A stretch of DNA of 64,000 nucleotides from Buxus sempervirens (lineage: Eukaryota > Streptophyta > Magnoliopsida > Buxales > Buxaceae): contig OX387187.1 of assembly GCA_947561395.2 (NCBI GenBank), forward strand, positions 42,639,253 through 42,703,252, given 5' to 3'. Below, one piece after another: positions 3,001-49,572 of the stretch (position 1 is its first letter; each line of letters begins with the position of its first letter). The notes beneath the pieces were generated by a model, which was not told the DNA's origin, did not search any database, and saw only the letters and a program-made list of their open reading frames with translations. The position numbers and the translations under genes were made by a program.

Positions 3001-6000
3001 CTTTTTCAGTTTTTTTTTTTTAAATTTTAAAATAGAAAAAGGAAAAACAATCATGCTCTTTAACACTAAAAGCTCCTATCTTAACATCCACTATAACTCA
3101 TTATACAGGATGAAGCAACTTCTAAGCATTACAATCACTTATATTTTTAGGAAATATATATATATATATAAACAGAACCCAATATCTTAGATGTAAGAAC
3201 TCTAATTTTTTAGTTATCTACATTATCCAATCCTATGTGTTCTAATCAAGGTTTGACATTTCGGCGGCCTCTCGCGAGGTGCCGCCAAAATTTCGCTTTT
3301 CGTGCCCTTAGCGGCACGAAAAATGACCCCGAAACGATCCCCTTGCGTTTCGTTGGGGTGCCACCGGCACGCCACCAATTTCGCTAATTTCGCCAGAATT
3401 TCATCAAAACATGAATTGTATAAAATCATGTGTATAAAGCCATTTCACTGGTGTGCCGCCAATTTCGCCAAAACATGGATTTCGTCAGGCCATTTCGTTC
3501 GCTTTTTGCTGGGGTGCCGTTGGTGTGCCGCCAATTTCGCCAAAAAAGCCTTTTCGGCCCATTTCACCAGCTTTTCGCCGGCAAACCGTTTCCGCCAGGC
3601 GGCACCGAAAAGTCGATCCTTGGTTCTAATAACTTATACCATGATTTAATACTAAAATTAAGTAACATTTCTTGGTTTACTTTAAGATTACTTGCATCAG
3701 TTTGATGTCCCTCATAGATGGGATTTAAAGATCCAGAAAGAACGATTCTCTTACATATATAAGGTTATAGTGAGTAGGACATAGGCGGGTTTGACAAACA
3801 CTAACTAGCTCTTATAAACATTTAAGACATACCAAACCAGCTTCTAACCTTATTGGGTTGTTCTTAGGGCGGGTCGGGTTGAATCGGCTATACTATAAAT
3901 GTTAAAATATTAGTGTTCATAAACAAAATATATAAAATAATTAATATATTTATTTATAAAGTACATATTTCAATTTTTATATATGATATATGCGATTTTC
4001 ACATATTTTAATGAATTAAGACTAGGTTTCTAGGAGGGTTGGACTAACCATACCTTAACCATAAAAAGGGTGGGGAGTGTTGTTGTTTGGAGCGTGTTAA
4101 CCAATTAACCCACCCCATTACCATCCTGAATGATGAGGCCTTGGGTATGATGTCTATGGGTATCGGATCTAGGTCAATCCTTTGGGTTGATTCTTGATTC
4201 AGAACCATTACACATATGAAAGATTTGCTTTTATGTACACGTTCATAGTGAGGATGAGTGCAATTGCAATGCTTATGGTGAATAAAGGAGTATAAATATG
4301 AAAAAAAAATGATTGCACTTTCTATTTTAGAAGTCATAAAACTATAAAAAAAAAATCCAATTTTTTAGAAGATAAGATCTTAAGGAATAATTGTCAATTT
4401 GGTAGGTGTCTTGGGGTGTAGATGCAATAAATGTAACACTATAGGAGTATAAATGAAAATAAAATATAATATGGGGGGACAAATGCAAAATGTTTTTAGT
4501 TTATAAGAGGTTACTTGATTCATTTAATGCAAATAGATAAAAATTTATGTATTTTAATGCCAACTGCCAAGTGTATGATTGAAACGATTATGGCAAATAA
4601 AGAGGTATAAATGTAAAAAACAAGAGGACATGAACAAAAATAGATTACAATGTGGTGGCATGGATGCAAAAAGCACAAAAAAATGACATCTCAATTATGA
4701 CTTGAGTAATTGCTTCTCTCCATAAAAGGAAAACTTTTATTCTATTATTCATTTTACTAAAAATCTCAATTTATCAAAGAAACACGAAGGTCATTTATGT
4801 TTGTGTCAGCCTTTATTAGAAGGAAAAGCTTCCTTCAAACTTGCCAATTTATGTTGGCTGTTTGAAAGGAATGTTACACTCCTATGGAAAGTTATTATTA
4901 CTGACTTTTGCAGACTTTTGCAGGAGTGTTCCAAGGCTTCTCACTTTTTGTGTAGAATTTTGCAAAAGAATTTAAATTTTGAAGAACCTTTAAAAATGCT
5001 AGTTTTGTTCTACTTCAAAAGTTTTAAGCTTTGAGATTTTGATCAATTTCAACTAGGTCCCACAAAAGATAAGTTCCTTATTGATTTCAAATAGGACAGG
5101 AAGTGATGGAAAAACAAGACTTAGCATCTATATTTCGACCGAAATTCCTTTCTAATGTTTTCTTCTAGTGCGATCAAGCTATATAAGTAATAAAATGTTT
5201 AATACTTCCTATCCTAATACAAATATAATCACCAATTAGCTATTGATAACACATTTAACACCAACTATTTTATCTTCATGTCATTATCTGCCATTATTCC
5301 TACGAACCCTCCGTATGTACCAATATTTACACTCATCAACCTCCTCAACCTCACATATTTCCATTCTGTCTCTTATAGCACATTCTAAATGCAAAAGCAC
5401 TACAATATTGTTTTGAATTTGCTGTATTTTATATGCATAACTGTACCCAAAAAAAGGTTATGTCAAGTAAGCAGCATGCAAAAAACTTTGCAGAATAATA
5501 AACCAAATAATAATATACCAATGCCAATGAAGTATGAAAAATATAAGTCTTTGGATAGGTTTGCAAGTTTCTAATTTCAAATTTTTTTTTATTAATCCCT
5601 TGTAGAATAGAAATTTCAATTTTACATTCAGTTTGGAATAATTTTAAAATAGGCTGACCAAATGTCATAAGGAAACATGTGATACCTGGTACACAATATG
5701 TCAAAAAGTTCCCACTTTTATCATCTATTGCCTTTTTTAATCTTTCACAAATGATTCAAAAATAAAAATGCATCAAAAGATATTATCAGTCAGATCTTTA
5801 AGACTCTTTTATCTGGTACTACTACATTGCCTTCTTATATGCCTCCAAAAATGCATCTGAGGCATTAACTTTAACTTCATTTCACATTTTGCTTCTAAAT
5901 CACTAGCCCTGCTTCCTAGTATCTCCCAATTTATGACTTTTATCAATTCATACTTCCAATTATTTCCATTATCTCTGTTGAAATTAAATTTTTAACCACA

Positions 6001-9000
6001 AGTTTTGGTAGACTGGCTTTGATTAGGATTTTATAACATATCCAGGTTAGAAAAAACCATCTAAATAATAGCATCAATGTTGAAAAGGTTGTGATGCATT
6101 ATACTTTTATCTAGTTTCCCTCTTAAACATGAACTGACATGGCAACTAGCAGGGATAAGTCAAAAAGCTCAGAGTTTATGTCACCTACAAGCCTTCATGT
6201 ATCACAGCCCTATTGTAAGGACCTGGTCAAAATTTCAAATAATAAATAGGGTTCAACTCTGACCAAGTCAAGAGTCCTTGTTTTGCATAAGTCCTATAGG
6301 TTATTGTACAGGAGATAGGTGCCTGCACACCCACCAGATCAATTTTTTTAAGTGTTAATATCAAACTTAAAACAACGGCTGAGATTAAATCTTTCTAATG
6401 AAGGGCATAAAGGTCATTAGACTTTAAATATATATTAATCAAGGGTTTAAAACCCTAATCCCGTTTTTGACATTGGAGGTGAGTTTTAAAGGATGGAGAA
6501 GAGGATTTTGGTGAAGAAATAGTGGTTTTGGAGCTACCCAACCCTAAACCTATGAAGGTAAGTGGTTTTAATCCATTTTTTATGCTTATAATGCTTAATC
6601 TCTCTTATCATCATCATTGATTTGTTCTTATATGAATCTGGGTTTTTGAAAGGCTCTTAATGTGTTAAAATGAATCTAAGAGAATAACATTATATTTTAT
6701 GAATTATAAACAAGGTAGTATTTGAGATCATGTATAAAGAGGAATATGAAGTTTTTCTTTGATTTATTGTTGAATGTATGTTACTGTTGATTTCACGTTT
6801 TGGGAATTGAAGAATCGGGGAAACATGATAGAACGTGAATTCACGTTTTTGGGAATCGGAGAATCTGGGAAACATGATAGAACGTGAATGCATGATTCAG
6901 AACTAGATTTCAATTACTTTTGTTGTAAAGGGTCGACAGGTTTAGAGAATGCAGTAGATTCAGTAGGTCCTGTTAACATTGGGTTGAACTAGATTTCAAT
7001 TAGTTTTATGATGAACAGTTGAAACCGACGATTTGGGTTGAACTAGATTTCAATTAGTTTTATGATGAAAAGTCGAAACAGTGATTTGGGTTGAACTAGA
7101 TTTCAATTAGTTTTATGATGAACAGTGGAACAGTCGATTTGGGTTGAACTAGATTTCAATTAGTTTTATGGTAAACAGTGAACAGTCAATTTTGAGTTGA
7201 AATCATTGTCTTTATTCTGGTTATTCTTTTGAAGTTAAACCTTATTTGTAATTACTTTACACTTCCACTTTTTTATTGAACCTAAAATTTAGTTACTTTA
7301 CTTTTCATTCGTCTGTAACTTTTGGACGAACCTGATTTTTAATTTAATTTACTTTTCAGTCATGGGCAGCTTTTTGGTTGAACCTCATTTTTAATTATCT
7401 TACTTTCATCCATGTGTTATGAGTTATTGTGATTTCCGTGAGATTACGGAATGACATGGAAATACTCAGTTGTGAACTTTGGGATATTTTATTTTGAAAT
7501 CTGTTTCTTGAGATGGGTGTACTGCTAGAGGGAAAACTACTAGTTCAGTACCCAGTAAGAGTATTGCTGGGATGAGTTTGTACTGCTAGTTAAAATACTA
7601 GTACAGTACCCACCGTGAATAAACGTTGGGAGATTTATGATGATTGTACTGCTAGTTGAGATACTAGTTCAGTACCCAATTGGGAACACTTGTGGGATGG
7701 TATTTGATGTACTTCTAGTATTTGCCACATACTAGTTAAGTACCTACAAGGATTACCGATGGGAGGATTGTACTCCTAGGACGTTACCTAGTTGAGTACC
7801 CAGTGAGGGACGCCTACTGGGATATAAATATTGATGAGTACTCCTGGCTTATGGTGCTGGTATGAGTACCCGGTGTGACTTCGGGTCTACTGGGAAATGT
7901 GGCTATGTGATACTCCTAGTGTAAATAACTAGTCAGAGTACCCAGTGACCGAATGGTCTCTTGGGAAGTTGAGATCTAGCGTTCTGATCTTATTGTGGGC
8001 TTAGTTCAATAAATCATTTAAATCTTTATTTTTGTCTATTGTTATTGTTATTATTGGTTATTAGGTAAATGGTTAAATTTCATGGTGAATTTCATTCTTA
8101 ATATATTCTGTTAAATTCTTTTGATGTTAATTGTTAAATTAATAGTTGATTTGATAGAGAGCATGATCCCTTGTATTTGAGATTTATGTACATGCTATAT
8201 ATATATTGACTATAAATGAATATAGGGAACACATGCATGAGTACAGTTTATTAAATATATATAATATTGATTGTATTTATATGAAGTAAAGTGGAAATTC
8301 AGCATGTAATCATATGGAGTGCATTAACTCCACTTACTGAGTTCATGTAAACTCACCCCTTACTATTTTACAGGAAACTATCGTAATCGTGGAGACGAGA
8401 AGAAATGAGAAGTTATTGAATTTATGATGTTTAGTGAATCTTATGAACATGTACTATTTAGGATTTGAACTTTTTGGTGTTATGTTTGGTTTCATGTAAT
8501 AGCTATGTGGTTTGGCCTTTTATCAAAATTGTTTTTAGATTCCGCTATGACTCTGATAATTAAGTTTATTAATGAGAATTTCATGTTTCGAGACGAAATT
8601 AATTTATAGGTTATATTCGCTTACGAGCAAGGTTACGTCCGGACCCACGTGTGTATAGTTATACACGATGTGTGGTTTCAGGGCGTGACACCAATGTCCC
8701 ATTTGCAATGCCAAATTGTAGATGTTCCAACTAGATATACCATCCTCCTTGGTTATCTGTTCGGTTGACTGTCACATGCATTTGTATTCTCATATTTATT
8801 TGTATTTCAATATGGATTTCTATTGAAGGTACCTCTTATCATATGATTTGTAAATTGGGGCCGTATGGTCTCTTCCATTTTGTAAAATTCATGCTGCCAA
8901 GTCCCAACTGATTTAGTTTATATGGATATTGGGATAGTGGGTTATTTTGATAGAAGCTGGTTCCTCAATTATATGTGTTGATAAGAATAGTAAAAGAGAG

Positions 9001-12000
9001 CAAAAATAGCAAGCACAGAGATACCGACTTATGTAGTTCAGCTTGAAAGCCTAAGTCTACAGGCAGCAAAGATGAGAAGATTCCATTAAATCAACTAGTT
9101 GTGGAGTATTCTTCCAACCACAGTAAACCCCCACTTCCAAAAAAAAACTATAAAACACAAAAAGTTTAGAGAGATCACACAAGACACAATAAGGGGCCAC
9201 GTAAGGATAACCCCAAAACCACCTCTGGAGAAGGCCCTAGGATATTGTGGAAAGAATACAAGACATCTACATAACAATAGGAACAGTGACTTTCTGAGAT
9301 TTCTTTTATTTTTTTAATTGTTAGTATTCTACTATGCAAATTTAAGGTTACTCCAAAAGGTGTGATATCTATTGACTTTGCAGATTTTTTTTTTGGATCA
9401 GTAATAAGAATGTATTCTATTAGAAATGTGATAAGAGAAAACAGAGATAAGAGTACATCCCATGAGGAGTGGGATGCATTCAAGACAGAAATCTAAAGAA
9501 ATTTTCCCTCTTATCAAATTTTCCATAACAGACCACCATAAATGATAACATGTTCACAATATTTGTGTGCGTATATGTAAGGATATAACTAAATATTGTC
9601 CATTATCAGCAGCAGCCATGAGACTTTACCTCTTTCTTATGGAAGAGTACTTTTCATTTTCCCAAATAGAATGGTAAATATTTCGAAGAAGAAAACTTTT
9701 TGCATCCTTGAGCACCTAAAGAAGTTCAAAATTCCATTATTTCTAGAGATGTTTAGCCTATTAATTCAGAACACACATGTAAAGAAAAACATCGCTACAT
9801 ACCTTTGACAGTAATGGCAGGGCTTCTAAAGCAGTCTTAAGAAGAATGATGCTTGATATCAATGCTTGACTCTTTTTAGCATTGTCAATCCTCACGACCT
9901 CATTTGTCACTTTCTTTGGCTTGAAGCAGAAATGACATAGTACTCGATCTGGCAGCAGAGCACAATAACATTGGCTTTTCTTTGCAATATGAGCAACTTC
10001 AGGAATTCATGAAAAAATTGATTATCATTAAATTTCAGTTACCAGTTTCCTTTGGAAATTTTCGAAGAACCTGTGAAAGACCAAAGAACAGCTCCTCATT
10101 GCTCATCAACTCATCCTGTAATTAAAAAAAACAAAAGAAAAAGAAAATGTCCTTGTGTTTGAGCTTTATTAGTTTAGAAGTCAAGGCATATATAAAAACA
10201 CAATAGATTGCAGAGTGCACTTTCACATAGCCAATAGCACAAATATGTTTTTATTTATGAGGAAGTAAATAAAAGTAAATGGCAAAAGCCTCTGTAAGAA
10301 AAGGTTAGAATAAAAAAATGTATCTGGCCTCCAAGAAATACAAAAGAACTTGTAATCAAATAAAAAGGTGACCAAGGTCAAGAATTGCTCAAAGGATAAA
10401 TGCAAGATGTAAATCCAATAAGTGGGAGGAGAAAACATTGCATAAGCCATTTGCGGAATATAATAAAAATAATTTGTTCTGCAATACATAAAATAACATG
10501 ACATTTTATCGTAGGATTTAGTCGTACTTTATTTTTATCACTAAAAACGTAACAGATTTATAAAAGAGAGAGAAAACACAATGAGTTATATATGTAAATA
10601 GATCTGGGTAGTTGGTACTTTTGAACTAGTCTGCAAGTGTGTACTTTGCATGCACACATGTTATATTCTGTCCCTCAAAGACACATCCATCTCCATTTTT
10701 TTATTTCATAAGATCCGAAGATCAGCCACAACAGAACTCTCCTGCCCAAAGCTGTCTCCAATCCCAGCCAAATAACACATCAGCCATGGTACTGAACAGT
10801 AAAATCTATTAAAATCTAAAAACCAACAGTAAGATCTGGTCTAATTTGATTAGACTGAACAGGCTGGGACCACCTCATATTGCTAATGCTGGCCATGTCC
10901 GTCCAGTCCGGTAACTGACCATGGGACATTAAACCATGCTGCTAATTATGTTCAGAAAATGACTAGGTTGAGTCCCAAGTGACAAATTTATGCCAGCAAG
11001 TTAGTTCCTGGCATGCAATATTAGGCTTCATTCTGCATTATAACTCAATTAAAGGCCTACTATTGCATCTCTTGTTTTGCAAATTTATACTTGCCATAAA
11101 GCGGGGGAAAATAAATCATAGAATCTTATAAGGAAAAACAAATATAAGTACAGCACTATGTTCCCACCTCCTTAATCCTTTTGTTAATTGTGAATCAGAG
11201 TCTTATATAAAGTATGCATCTTCTACTTCCTACTGAATGATAATCTAGTGGTTATAACTGATACCGATAGAACATAAAATATTGAAATTACAGTGCACTA
11301 GTGCGTTGTTAATTATTATTATTATTATAACAAAATAATTTTGTTATAGAAAATGCAACTATAACTAAAACCATCATTAGTACTATAGGATGAACCATGG
11401 ACAAAGACACCTTTGTCACTTTTTTGCATGGTTATGGGTATGTCAAATCTCAAAGTTCTAAAATCATGGTAAAAATAGATGGCCATAAATATTTATGAAG
11501 ACCTCAATATTTTCGCATAGAAATTCTATAACCTATTACTACTAGAATCATGGTATGTACCTGTGTTCAAAACTACCAAATAAATTGCAAAAGCAACAAT
11601 AAAATGTGTCGTACAATCTTACACTATATTATATGCATGTCCTTCGACATGTCTTCAAAAACCATTTAAAAAAACAAAACACAATGCCTTATCACAACTA
11701 ATTGGGACAAGCAGCACACTTGTTGCTGCTTACCACATCCCAATCTGTCAAAAACCATATCTTCAATAGCAAGTCTTGGAAAAACCTAAACAAAAAACAA
11801 GTCTGTACATGCCCAACCAGGCCTCTGACATGAGTAGACACAAGGATCATGGCAATAAGTGTATGACAAATTGACCACCTATAAAAAAAAAGTGCCCTAA
11901 ATACAATAGCTATAATGGTCATATTCCCAACTGGTTTAACAAATATAACATAAATTGAACAAAAAATTATAAAAACTATATTTAATACTGACCAGGCAAT

Positions 12001-43800: not shown

Positions 43801-46800
43801 CCCTGAATGAGGACAATTGGGGAGTAGTCCTCCTTCAAGAATGCTAACTTCTAGTTAATCCTCTAAGCCACAAAATGCCACATCTTTGAAAATGGTGGGT
43901 TAATCCTCTAAGCTACTTAATGGTCTAACCCCTGACCTTACATCCCAGAATATTGCCACACGATTTCTACAGAGCTTCAATAGCTTGTATCACACATACA
44001 CTACCTGTTATATATTAACTTAATTAGTACAATTCCTTCATCGTCCAATGACTCCATTACCTTTAATATTGACCACATATATATTATTCAAAGGGGCTAT
44101 CTTGCAATCAATGAATCTTAATATTTTATCAATTTTTATTTTAAAAACTTCATATCTCATAATCATTTTCCTTTTTTAATTAAAAACAAAATTTTGTAGA
44201 CTTATATTTTATCTAAGCATTCTAGCATTTCTTAATATTAAATGAAAAATTTTGGTTTAACCACTATCAGCTTTTATAATTTTCCACAAATTAATTCTAG
44301 TGGTCTGAGATTTTCTACATTCACACCAAGTTAAGGTCCCTCTTTTAGGGTAAATTAACAAATAACAATAAAACTCATAAATTATTACACAGAATTTCAA
44401 CCAAATAAAATTCCATTTCTCAAGCTGAAGGAAGTCTGAGGTATAGTACTGACCACACTTGTAATGAAACCCCAACATCGTGAAATGGAGCGCAAAGGAA
44501 GCAACCTCAAAAATGTAGCCTGCAGTCGGCAAGGACCAGCCAATATGATATATGTCACTACATACGAAACTTACAGGCTTTTTTTCGAACCAAAATACAG
44601 TAGTCATGATCCAACGAAATGATGATGACTAAAATAAAATAAAATTACTACTTTTAGATCAGGTGAGAACTCGTGTTCAATTCCCTTTTCTCTTGCCTCT
44701 TCAACCTGTCAAGAAACCACGACTGAAATAAAATAATAGTAATAATGATATGACCAGCCATAAAGATCATAGTCTTCCTAAATCTCTTTTGACTTCTTTC
44801 ACACTATGTATTTGGAATTACAGAAACAGGATACTGAGATTTACCTTCTTGTCATCGTAGAGTCTCCGAGCATGAAGAACACCAAGCATAAGGATAGTAG
44901 CCACAGTTGCACCAGGAACCAGCAAGGAATTACCTGTAATATACGCTTAATGGTGATCATTAGATCCCTCATGGAAATGGACAGTCCATATGGTGGGTTG
45001 GCAAGAGAGGGATGGAGATTAAAAGATCCTCAAACTCCAAACCAAGACAGGAAGAGAACCAACAATTATTACAGATTTAGAATATTTCAAGTTTAGAATC
45101 TCACCATGTTCCTATATTGTCAAGATTCTCACTAACTATGTTATAGGAATATGTTTCCTTGCACAAAATAGATTTGTAGGATTTAGAATATTTCTTTATG
45201 CAATACATGATTCTAGGAGAGATTTAGGATACAATTATAGAAATTTCTTTTCTTTAAATACATTGTACATGTATATTGATAATTAATGAGTAAGGAATCC
45301 TTCTTTTCAGGTTTAGACTCGTTTATATTTACGTTTCTTAACATGGTATCAGAGCCTTCATCCTCAAGGTCTAGACTCGTTCTCCATTGTGATAGCATGG
45401 CTGATAATCCTGACCTCTTACCCAGTCTTCTTCTTCACAAGTGAGTAATGTTTTTTCCCCTTATTTTCTTCACTCATCCGATCATCCTAGTGCTGTTCTA
45501 GTCTCCTCTCTTCTTACTGGAGACAATTATTCTACATGGCAAAGAGCTATGAAGATGGCTCTCAATGCAAAGAATAAACTTGGGTTCGTTAATGGCACTA
45601 TAAAGCTTCTTGCTATCGTCTCATTGGCTTCCCTACTCATGGGAATCAAAATCGTAACACTTCACGGAATGATACAAGTCGTCAATCTGTGGCCCACCAG
45701 GTTTCTGCTAGCCCACCTACAACTTCAACCGAACATGGGATCCCTGGGTTAACTAGTGTGCAATATAATCAATTAATGGATCTACTCAAGTCTCCTTTTG
45801 TCAACTTTGCTGGTAATTCTTCTGTACCCTCGTCTTCTCACACTTTATCTAATTGGATTATAGACAGTGGAGTATCTGACCACATGTCTAAGCATTCATC
45901 TTCTCCTATCAAACCATACGTTACACATCAGTTTAGTCCTGTTCGTTTACCAACAGGTGATGTTGTTCCAGTTTCTCACGTTGGCACCTTTCATTTATCT
46001 CCCTCAATTACTCTTCATAATGTTCTCTTTGTTCCTGATTTTGAATTTAATCTTGTGTCCATTAGTAAAATTACCAAATCTCTAAATTGTGTTGCTATTT
46101 TTTTTCCACCTTTTGTGTTTTCCAGGACCTAACCACGAGGATGCTGATTGGAATGGGTGAAGAGTGTAATGGACTCTATTACTACAAGCATGTCTCTCCT
46201 ATAGCCTTTCATGTGAATAGATCTGTTCAGTCAAATATCTGGCACCAGCGACTTGGTCATCCTTCTCATTCCTGCTTACCCAGTTTTTTATCTCCTTCTA
46301 ATAAACTACTTCATTGTAATGTGTGTGCTAAAGGAAAGCACACAAGACTTCCTTTTTCTTTGGTCTAAAATAAAAGTACATTTGTCTTTGATCGCATTTA
46401 TTGTGATATTTGGGGTGGTTATCATACAGCATCCACCATGGGTGCTCATTACTTCTTGACTATTGTAGATTTCTCTCGGGTTACTTGTGTGTATTTAATG
46501 TGCCTTAAATCTAAAACCTTACAATGTCTTAGAAATTTCTTTGCCATGGCTCAAACCCAATTTCAATGCAAAATTCGTCATATCCGTACTGATAATGGTC
46601 AAGAATTTCTATCTCATGCTACCAAACATTTTTTTCATGAACAAGGTGTCATCCATGAGCAAACTTGCGTAGAGACACCCCAACAAAATAGTGTTGCCGA
46701 ACATAAACATCGACATCTTCTCAATGTTGCTCGATGCCTACGCTTTCAAGCCAATCTTCCTATTCAATTTTGGGGTGAATGTATTCTCACTACAACCTAT

Positions 46801-49572
46801 TTAATCAATCGTACTCCTTCACCTAGTCTTGATAACATTACTCCCTATGAACGTCTTTTTAACAAAGCACCTCACTATGACCACTTATGTGTTTTTGGAT
46901 GTTTATGTTATGCTCAAACATTACAATCTCATAAGGATAAATTTCAAGCAAGGGCAATTCCCTGTATTTTTATTGGATATCCTCTCAGTCAAAAGGCATA
47001 CCGACTGTTTAATATGGCAACAAAGAAAATATTCACTTCTCGAGATGTAACCTTTGTTGAAAGTGTTTTCCCTTTTCACACCATTATGTCTCCATCATCT
47101 ACTCCCACCGTCATTCCTCAACCCCTTTTAGAGATACCCATTGAACCCCTTCATCCACCTATTCATGAACCTTCCCCTCCTAATTCTCCACCTTCTATTA
47201 ATGTTCCACTGTCTAATCCTTTACCACTCACTAATCCAATTCCCTTTACTAGACCACGTCGTCACATCATCCGTCCCTCGTACCTTCAAGACTATGTTTG
47301 TCCCACTTTACCTTTCGAGTCCAACACGTCTTCATCCACTTCACAGCATTCATCAGGTACGGCTCATCCGCTTGCTAATTTCATTTCTTATCATAAATTC
47401 TCTTCTCAACATTTTTCTTTTATCTCTTCTTTGGCTTTACATTATGATCCTGTTAGCTATTCAGCATTCTCATTGGCGTGATACTATAACTTCTGAAATA
47501 CATGCTTTGGAAGACAACAACACTTGGAGTCTTCACTCTCTTCCTCCTGGTAAGAAGCCCATTGGCTGTAAATGGGTTTTAAAAACTAAACTTCGTCCAG
47601 ATGGATCCATTGAACGGTATAAAGCTCGTCTAGTGGCCAAGGGTTATACCCAATTTGAAGGCCTTGACTATCATGATACTTTTGCCCCGGTAGCAAAACT
47701 CGTCACTGTTCGTTGTGTTCTAGCTATTGCAATAGCTCTTCATTAGTTAGATGTGCATAATGCCTTTCTTTATGGTGACCTCGATGAAGAAGTCTACATG
47801 ACCCTTCCACCTGGCTATTGTGGTAAGGGGGAGACTCGGGTTTGTCGTCTCCACAAGTCTCTTTATGGGTTAAAACAAGCTTCTCGCAACTGGTATTCTA
47901 AACTTTCCTCTGTTCTCATCTCCACGGACTTCACTCAATCACAGGCTGATCACTCGTTGTTTACACGATCCAATGATCAAACTTTTACTGCTATTCTTGT
48001 CTGTGTGGATGATATTTTGTTGACAGGAAACGATCTTCATGCTCTCACTATCGTGGAAGCCTTCTTAGCTGATCATTTCAAGATCAAGGACCTTGGTTCT
48101 CTTAAATATTTCCTTGGGCTAGAGGTTGCTCGTTCACCTTCTGGTATTTTTCTCAACCAACGGAAGTATACTCTAGATATTCTTTCTGATGCGGGCACTT
48201 TGGGTTCTTGTCCTTCTCTTTTTCCCATGGAGTATAATTTGAAGTTAACACCTCATGATGGCGAACTCCTCTCAGATCCCGATATCTATCGGCGTCTTGT
48301 TGGTCGCCTCATTTACTTAACTATCACACAACCTGATATTGTTTTCTCCGTTAATGTTCTCAGTCAGTTCATGCATCAACCCCGTCAACCGCACTATCAA
48401 GAAGCTCTTCGAGTTCTTCGCTATCTCAAGTCTTCACCTGGTCATGGTATATTCTTTTCTTCCACCTGCAATTTTCAGGTCTCAGCATATTCAGACTCTG
48501 ATTGGGCGAGTTGTCCTACCACTTGCCGCTCCCCTACTGGTTTCTTTATCAAGCTTGGTGACAGTCCTATCTCTTGGCGCACTAAGAAGCAATCTGTTGT
48601 CACTCGTTCCTCCGCTGAAGCAGAATATCGTGCGATGGCGTCTACCACTTGTGAATTAGTCTGGTTAAAACTCTTCGTGACTTGGCTGTCTCTCATCCTC
48701 AACCTATGCTCCTTCATTGCGATAATCAAGCTGCACTTCATATCACCCGCAATCCTATGTTTCATGAACGCACCAAGCACATCAAGATCGATTGTCACTT
48801 GGTTAGAGAAAAATTCCAAGCTCGTCTAATATTTCCGCTTCATTTTCCTAGCACACATCAACTTGCTGATATCTTCAATAAAGCCCTTGGTCATGAGTCT
48901 TTTCATCATTTAGTTGGCAAGTTGGGCGTAACTGACCTTCATGCTCCAACTTGAGGGGGAGTATTACAGATTTAGAATATTTCAAGTTTAGAATCTCACC
49001 ATGTTCTTATATTGTCAAGATTCTCACTAACTATGTTATAGGAATATGTTTCCTTGTACAAAATAGATTTGTAGGATTTAGAATATTTCTTTATGCAATA
49101 CATGATTCTAGGAGAGATTTAGGATCCAGTTATAGAAATTTCTTTTCTTTAAATACATTGTACATGTATATTGATAATTAATGAGTAAGGAATCCTTCTT
49201 TTAAGGTTTAGACTCTTTTATCTTTACGTTTCTTAACAACAATCAGCATCCAAATTATAAAATCTATCGATCACTAAATTCTATAGTAAATATGCAATCT
49301 CGGACAAAAAAAAAACTAAAAATTTATGTACAAAAGATACATAAAAAGATTAAAAAAAAATTTTTGCTTAAAAATGAAGGATACAGTACATGCCAAGCTT
49401 GCAATGGGATAGGAAACTGACCTTCAGAACTTCCGGTGCCTCCATTACCGGACGCTCGACTGGTTAGGAGGTTCCTTGCTAAAGGAGTGAAACAAAGACG
49501 ATGACGAGGGAAATATTTAAAACGTAAATGTTGTGGACAAACGGGCCATTTTGGAGAAGCCCTAAATTTCAT
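34865..49572 (-). CDS. PSD1: PSD1, mitochondrial phosphatidylserine decarboxylase, 12 exons, 437 aa
   Basis: The enzyme converts phosphatidylserine to phosphatidylethanolamine at the mitochondrial inner membrane. Minus-strand exons: 49572-49422, 44933-44845, 44705-44652, 44519-44454, 42368-42308, 42141-42032, 41918-41671, 39306-39200, 38888-38821, 37360-37283, 35988-35866, 35023-34865. All junctions are GT-AG and the phases close to 437 residues (Arabidopsis PSD1 is about 453). Exon 1 encodes a basic, Arg-rich presequence ([20 protein letters not shown]). Exon 2 encodes a membrane segment ([20 protein letters not shown]). Later come [15 protein letters not shown] and the C-terminal NMGSTVVL. 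Its GST triplet is the known self-cleavage site, where Ser becomes the pyruvoyl group, so the C-terminal piece becomes the alpha chain. I chose Met at 49572 by homology; an upstream in-frame Met at 49797 would add a non-homologous extension. Intron 1 carries an antisense Copia element. Confidence 0.95.
36100..36180. repeat. Dispersed repeat, ACTAGCAGAGTGCATGTGCAGT family, copy 1
   Basis: TAACTAGCAGAGTGCATGTG then CAGTGCTGCATGTATGTA. Related to copies near 59826 and 63618. Lies in PSD1 intron 10. Confidence 0.65.
40460..40950. mobile_element. hAT-like remnant with GGCCCAGCCC words, in PSD1 intron 7
   Basis: Begins TGGGTGGCAATTTTAGGCCC, a usual plant hAT end. GGCCTGG/CCAGGCC words sit near both ends around an AT-rich middle. 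The right end is not resolved. Confidence 0.5.
43005..43310 (-). mobile_element. RTE-type LINE fragment in PSD1 intron 4 region
   Basis: The minus strand reads [16 protein letters not shown], then [12 protein letters not shown] and MRMLRWMH, the C-terminal part of RTE reverse transcriptase. It is interrupted and lacks the rest. It lies in the intron between exons ending at 44454 and starting at 42368. Confidence 0.75.
45067..45343 (+). repeat. 5' LTR of the Copia element
   Basis: 277 bp direct repeat of 48962-49238. It starts TATTACAG and ends TTAACA, so the usual TG start is TA in both copies. The ends are fixed by the adjoining ACAAT target duplication and the primer-binding site that follows immediately. 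Confidence 0.95.
48962..49238 (+). repeat. 3' LTR of the Copia element
   Basis: 277 bp, the same length as the 5' LTR, with seven differences counted by eye. It is preceded by a G-rich purine tract and followed by the second ACAAT of the target duplication. Confidence 0.95.

Follow-up and report, generated by a model that had tools for sequence, protein, structure and literature searches.

The window, a stretch of 64,000 nucleotides on contig C9 of the Buxus sempervirens genome (677 Mb searched), contains a solo LTR of the Ty3/gypsy type with an array of paired hairpins inside it. The LTR has TG..CA ends, no primer-binding site (PBS) follows position 8690 and the flanks CCTAT/CCAAT match at 4/5 positions. 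We therefore consider it a solo LTR, in agreement with the preliminary description of a Gypsy solo LTR. Both of its ends recur in other copies of the same type (type A) and in copies of type B. The features discussed below are:

6214–8690, + strand: solo LTR, Ty3/gypsy, with the ends TGTAAGGACC...GGGCGTGACA
6429–6435, + strand: TATA-like box of putative function, found 215 bp from the LTR start in each of the three A copies whose 5' end is present
6558–6563, + strand: putative splice donor GTAAGT; GTAAGTGG is kept in 4 A and 3 B of 11 scanned loci, most of the remaining ones lacking the 5' side in the piece scanned
7519–7572, + strand: unit 1, H1 with G:C, then H2
7580–7631, + strand: unit 2, H1 with G:C, then H2
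7646–7697, + strand: unit 3, H1 with G:C, then H2
7709–7764, + strand: unit 4, H1 with T:A, then H2 (CCTA here, CCCA in other A copies)
7770–7822, + strand: unit 5, H1 with C:G, then H2; the matching type B unit has G:C
7838–7895, + strand: unit 6, H1 with C:G, CTGG/CTGG (two G-U pairs) and a 3-nt bulge; H2 begins CCCG
7910–7966, + strand: unit 7, H1 with C:G, outer end ATACT and a 3-nt bulge; H2 with inner GACC/GGTC
8316–8331, + strand: hairpin GGAGT..ACTCC (type A form)
8339–8354, + strand: hairpin GAGTT..AACTC (type A form; broken in L053)
8351–8377, + strand: putative acceptor-like block ACTCACCCCTTA..CAG↓GAAA, conserved

Three further tandem repeats lie upstream of the array in the same LTR (6788–6889, 6979–7201 and 7293–7396, with units of 49, 53 and 52 bp), in the part that does not align to type B. 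At 45689–48829 the window also contains a Ty1/copia-like element, distinct from this LTR, whose integrase- and RT-like ORFs were recognised by eye.

The array (7519–7966) consists of seven units, each formed by two adjacent hairpins, H1 and directly after it H2, with a start-to-start distance of 61–72. H1 has the form 5' GTACTx CTAG - loop - CTAG (2–3 nt bulge) yAGTAC 3', in which the pair x:y is variable. H2 reads CCCAg - loop - TGGG. Seven tandem hairpin units had been described at 7519–7965, with G:C as the variable pair in units 1–3, T:A in unit 4 and C:G in units 5–7, and all seven are found there with these states. The motif GTACTN..NAGTAC, ascribed to every unit, has an exact GTACT in 6/7; unit 7 reads ATACTC..GAGTAC. 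The second stem, given as CCCA..TGGG after most units, has TGGG in 7/7 and an exact CCCA in 5/7, the exceptions being unit 4 (CCTA, absent from the other A copies compared) and unit 6 (CCCG). A second paired block in H1, CTAG/CTAG, had been overlooked. It lies across a one-sided 2–3 nt bulge from GTACTx and reads CTGG..CTGG in unit 6, compared with CTAG..CTAG in the other six units. The bulge is kept in 200 of 204 units from 33 arrays; each array was read on the strand with more matches, so that the side of the bulge (5' or 3') follows the strand. Loops, or spacers between the half-sites, are 4–17 nt long, and both GTAC and CTAG are short palindromes. Scores of the seven units in cmsearch (E 2.6e-14 to 2.4e-10) are not independent, as the model was partly built from these units. 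A coding reading was rejected, the unit spacings (56/53/52) showing no phase of 3.

Folding of the array is more stable than that of all 100 dinucleotide shuffles, with z −3.9 for the + RNA, −4.4 for the − RNA and −3.2 for the DNA. In a 130-nt scan along the + strand of the LTR, z is −3.0 to −1.2 for windows in the array and reaches −2.6 in one window outside it, at 6344. The array thus stands out only moderately in the LTR, and the folding energy of one sequence is by itself weak evidence. Matches to the pattern GTACTNCTAG-N4..30-CTAG-N2..6-AGTACC number 921 in the genome, compared with 3 for a reversed-pattern control. An exact scan for the pattern gave 14 stretches in viral contigs and 15 in bacterial and archaeal genomes (257 billion bases), both chance-like, and x:y is Watson-Crick in 14/32 pairs of these matches. 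The best look-alike, in a cyanobacterial contig (L091), was judged to be chance: it is one match with no further unit in the 3 kb examined. In Rfam, the region 5500–9500 of the window gave nothing above chance; the array has no match there, and the sole match, sR52, lies elsewhere (19.1 bits at a cutoff of 50, E 0.93). A chance origin of the array is rejected by the shuffles, the reversed-pattern control and the tree-aware null described below.

The array is not private to the window copy. It occurs in at least four LTR types of this one genome, namely A (window), B, C and E (B-like), whose LTRs end alike at the 3' side, in GGGCGTGACA or a sequence close to it. The 5' end TGTAAGGACC and the donor-like site GTAAGTGG were seen in A and B, and the C and E pieces examined stop short of them. 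Types A and B are 61% identical from the array to the LTR end. They have a short common stretch around the donor-like site and nothing alignable between that stretch and the array region. In windows, A-B identity is 0.56–0.70 in the array, 0.33–0.45 in the three windows just upstream and 0.41–0.62 downstream, the last not much below that of the array. Two loci with the same 3' LTR end and PBS, L063 and L064, lack any unit fitting the model within ~1.5 kb and do not resemble the window LTR. Not all LTRs with this end and a PBS therefore contain the array. The last 500 bases of the L064 LTR contain a similar acceptor-like block, TACTGGG..CTACTATTTTTACAG, despite having no array.

The number of units differs between types, with up to eight, while their order is kept: a T:A unit in A, B and C is followed by a unit with the H2 loop GAGGGACGCC or a near form. 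Combined with the covarying arms, this order distinguishes the array from a plain tandem-repeat satellite. The unit with the GAGGGACGCC loop has x:y as C:G in A and C and as G:C in B, and a unit with tggnaa..ttca has G:C in B and C:G in C. As read from the matched units, both cases are compensatory double changes that go beyond differences between paralogues. In one B unit, CTAG/CTAG is changed to TTAG/CTAA. The state of x:y is G:C in 5/7 units of L042 (type B) and C:G in 5/6 units of L060 (type C), and type A is split into 5' units with G:C and 3' units with C:G. This bias of B and C relative to A may reflect homogenisation or a code.

For the covariation analysis, 34 loci were listed. Among the loci used are the 20 arrays that come first along contig C1 (L039–L058), loci chosen as other types (L059–L062), the best window-like matches (L002–L008), and L098 and L102, chosen as missing from the list of 921 matches. 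Two entries, L008 and L054, overlap one place, leaving 33 arrays, and collapsing their 204 units gave 118 distinct rows. Broken units are under-counted in these, since a unit was excluded when it had more than 3 anchor mismatches or its CTGGGA anchor was weak. Across the genome, x:y is G:C in 435, C:G in 239, T:A in 83 and A:T in 74 matches. All four states thus occur, and 831/921 pairs are Watson-Crick; reversed controls for the four state searches gave 0, 1, 0 and 0. Over the 118 rows, 100 pairs are Watson-Crick, 12 A-C, 5 G-U and 1 other. Most of the exceptions are A-C or G-U, the outcome predicted for C-to-T decay in dead copies. By majority letters, x:y is Watson-Crick in all 20 unit classes (G:C 9, C:G 7, T:A 3, A:T 1).

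The null for these 118 rows was generated with our own R-scape-like script, using a tree built without the tested columns and 60 simulated alignments. By covariation, x:y ranks first among the 820 pairs and lies above every one of the 49,200 null scores. Rank 2 is n1:n1', a predicted pair of the same stem, with a score of 63.1 (E 2, not significant alone), and rank 3 has E 12.9. None of the H2 pairs is significant alone in the tree-aware null. Among 32 branches with a change in x or y, both sides changed on 7, all of which end paired, and one side changed on 25. One-sided change is the expected decay of dead insertions and by itself does not amount to independent variation of the arms. In 27 chosen units, the structure holds in 90.3% of 485 cells and x:y is paired in 27/27, with four pair types. 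The covariation score of this set is above all column shuffles (0/500 as high); its 7 pairs with changes on both sides are not above them (79/500 as high).

The preliminary description had proposed past selection on a fold, a claim tied to significant covariation and to arms that do not vary independently. A tree-aware test of the kind it named supports the claim, with x:y at 153.2 compared with a null maximum of 112.0. By covariation and consensus folding, the array has a conserved base-paired structure, as retroviral-type RNA export or packaging elements do, and we are highly confident that selection acted on its pairing. Numerous dead copies, from several families of a single genome, can contain variation enough to reveal such selection inside an LTR.

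The combination GGGCGTGACA + N{0,12} + TGGTATCAGAG has 68 matches in the genome and 0 in the control, and some of these PBS matches adjoin array LTRs (C1:22737192 with L050, C10:27793008, C11:33813100). We take TGGTATCAGAG to be a PBS of the tRNA-Met type. Some array LTRs thus have the TG..CA ends and PBS of Ty3/gypsy elements; the window copy, being solo, is without a PBS. A locus ~2 kb downstream of one A LTR (L065) encodes Integrase_H2C2 (E 9e-13) and a Tf2-like SH3 domain, SH3_Tf2-1 (E 2e-25), as well as an rve-like core below the Pfam cutoff (E 1e-5, 25.8 bits, cutoff 32.6). A stop-interrupted stretch that looks chromodomain-like follows SH3_Tf2-1. On these domains and the PBS matches, the array-bearing element is of the Ty3/gypsy type, probably a chromovirus, and perhaps of the Tekay/Del lineage from its look. 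The internal parts beside L050 and L066, from copies of types A and B, contain no long ORF and appear related by eye. Such A and B copies are perhaps non-autonomous derivatives.

The array is positioned between the conserved donor-like and acceptor-like sites, and the two hairpins at 8316–8354 lie directly before the latter. The acceptor-like block has 186 matches in the genome and 0 in the reversed control. The hairpin at 8316–8331 reads GAGGT..ACCTC in C, GAGGT..GCCTC in E and GGGGT..ACCTC or GGGGT..GCCTC in most B copies, and the one at 8339–8354 reads GGGTTTC..GAGACTC in B, C and most E copies. Judged by these forms, both hairpins change in a compensatory manner between types. In 12 sequences of four types, RNAalifold places consensus structure at ~7568–7960 and in the two hairpins. 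Elsewhere it finds traces only (−0.3 kcal/mol near 7948, −0.9 near 8560 with z −1.3), with many windows in the scan lacking a finite z, as their shuffles did not fold. We think it somewhat probable that the array is part of a putative LTR-borne leader intron. No spliced copy of the A leader turned up in the genome (0 matches at ≤3 mismatches), a result that is uninformative.

Additional features were observed in types B and E. In type B, a nested stem formed by CCCAATA..TATTGGG and CTGGCAGAC..GTCTGCCAG links unit 4 to unit 5 (L042, − strand, ~2395–2301, and other B/E copies); T:A, G-U and broken variants of it occur among 12 distinct sequences. Several B/E copies have a further CAG↓GTAAGTAT-like site 3' of the array. 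Downstream of the array, L041, L042, L045, L111, L062 and L098 have a donor-like AGGTAAGTATTTCTAAC that is changed in L102. It suggests a small exon in these copies.

The selected form could be RNA or DNA. Decay within unit classes is without bias (G-U 49, A-C 54), as expected of dead DNA. Majority states at the class level (19 classes with ≥2 copies) lean to sense-strand RNA, with G-U 20 versus A-C 9. This difference does not reach significance (binomial p 0.06, Fisher p 0.058) and is weakened by some H2 cells being out of register in the block alignment. Whole-array z is alike on both strands. Units are more stable on the + than on the − strand in 15/20 classes (p 0.003), and base composition favours the + strand too (shuffled means −137 and −104); we set aside strand choice by unit energy because composition gives the same direction. 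The loops and spacers of 4–17 nt argue against a rigid two-site (dimeric) DNA contact.

In a DNA-level reading, the units would be inverted-repeat or cruciform protein sites, for example of a repeated enhancer, recognised in their DNA form. Tandem repeats in U3 can act in transcription, and repeats of this kind are present in Tnt1 (PMC3601003). The array folds as DNA beyond all 100 shuffles, GTAC and CTAG are palindromic, and the G-U bias falls short of significance. Against this stand the variable half-site spacer, the position between splice-like sites and some unit classes in which G-U predominates (unit 6 and H2 CCCGG/CTGGG). We rate the DNA-level reading as unlikely, and with good though not full confidence assign the selection to RNA rather than DNA. 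A different function for the same RNA anatomy is that the hairpins control splicing or mediate expression from an intron, setting intron retention or enhancing expression with no role in packaging or export. The two paired hairpins directly before the acceptor-like site and the further CAG↓GTAAGTAT-like site of B/E copies would fit this function, whereas 7–8 similar modules suggest repeated binding of a protein over masking of a splice site. We give it a low probability, similar to that of the DNA element.

Two explanations dispense with selection on the fold. An LTR passes through reverse transcription in each cycle, and template switching during reverse transcription or replication could perfect hairpins and would yield exact Watson-Crick x:y pairs. 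Arm-to-arm copying would, however, erase the one-sided bulge, which persists in 200/204 units. Sequence selection would be needed in any case, as GTACT/CTAG is near-fixed across types while the loops diverge and the order is kept. We consider this mechanism improbable. Recent, unselected tandem duplication of a chance palindrome accounts for units that are clearly related by duplication and for their differing number between types. It is very hard to reconcile with covariation beyond the tree-aware null, with all four x:y states and with an array kept across LTR types that can hardly be aligned immediately upstream of it, and we give it almost no weight.

Our preferred reading, to which we assign a probability of roughly 45%, is that the array acts in cis as a multi-copy RNA element, selected for its structure, in a group of plant Ty3/gypsy (chromovirus-type) retrotransposons, and marks their unspliced RNA. 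The TATA-like box at 6429 would place the transcription start nearby. A leader containing the donor at 6558, the acceptor ending at 8373 and, between them, the array would then be spliced. As the array lies between donor and acceptor, only full-length, unspliced RNA would carry it. The bulged stem of H1 is fixed in sequence apart from the pair next to the bulge, which can vary. These bulged stems may be bound repeatedly by Gag or by a host adaptor for export, and such binding would mark the full-length RNA for packaging or nuclear export, while the spliced leader RNA would serve translation. We propose a role in packaging or export of unspliced RNA only tentatively and by analogy, favouring it because these roles have known parallels (the RNA pools of BARE, and RTE/MTE). 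The most specific form of the model is speculative: the array would be an identity tag of unspliced RNA, a multivalent bulged-hairpin platform that is spliced out of the mRNA and recruits Gag or an export factor, with x:y as a lineage-specific code. We regard this combination as doubtful.

The separation of RNA for translation and packaging in plant LTR retrotransposons is largely an open question, and a covarying multi-copy hairpin platform between splice-like sites is a defined, testable candidate for it. According to the part of a review available to us, direct studies of LTR-element RNA export in plants have not been done, and plant LTR elements are generally without introns, Ogre and EVADE being among the exceptions (PMC12786077). 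Among the literature matches listed, mainly open-access and covering titles and the starts of abstracts, none concerns a hairpin array in a plant LTR. Retrotransposon and repeat terms are absent from PMC12218528.

Known systems resemble the array in different respects. The retroviral psi is a multi-hairpin leader RNA after the first splice donor, an arrangement that the array would share. Psi contains no tandem array of one module and is usually located downstream of the LTR, whereas the array is a tandem module inside the LTR. CTE has repeated bulged motifs and, like the IAP RTE and MusD MTE, belongs to animal elements and has few modules. The likeness to these three lies in a structured retroelement RNA and the export of full-length transcripts; here, up to eight double hairpins are found in a plant LTR. 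RTE and MTE are described as structured RNAs that export full-length retroelement transcripts in the accessible part of PMC12786077. The barley element BARE is likewise a plant LTR element and has separate RNA pools for translation and packaging. It differs in being Ty1/copia, with two promoters and an intron in gag, and the part of the source consulted describes no hairpin array (PMC3735527). Tnt1 and other elements with U3 repeats share the tandem repeats in the LTR; a transcriptional role is ascribed to these, and the available part of the report describes no covarying hairpins (PMC3601003). By this comparison, the array would belong to the cis-acting RNA structures of retroelements, with an unusual tandem arrangement and location.
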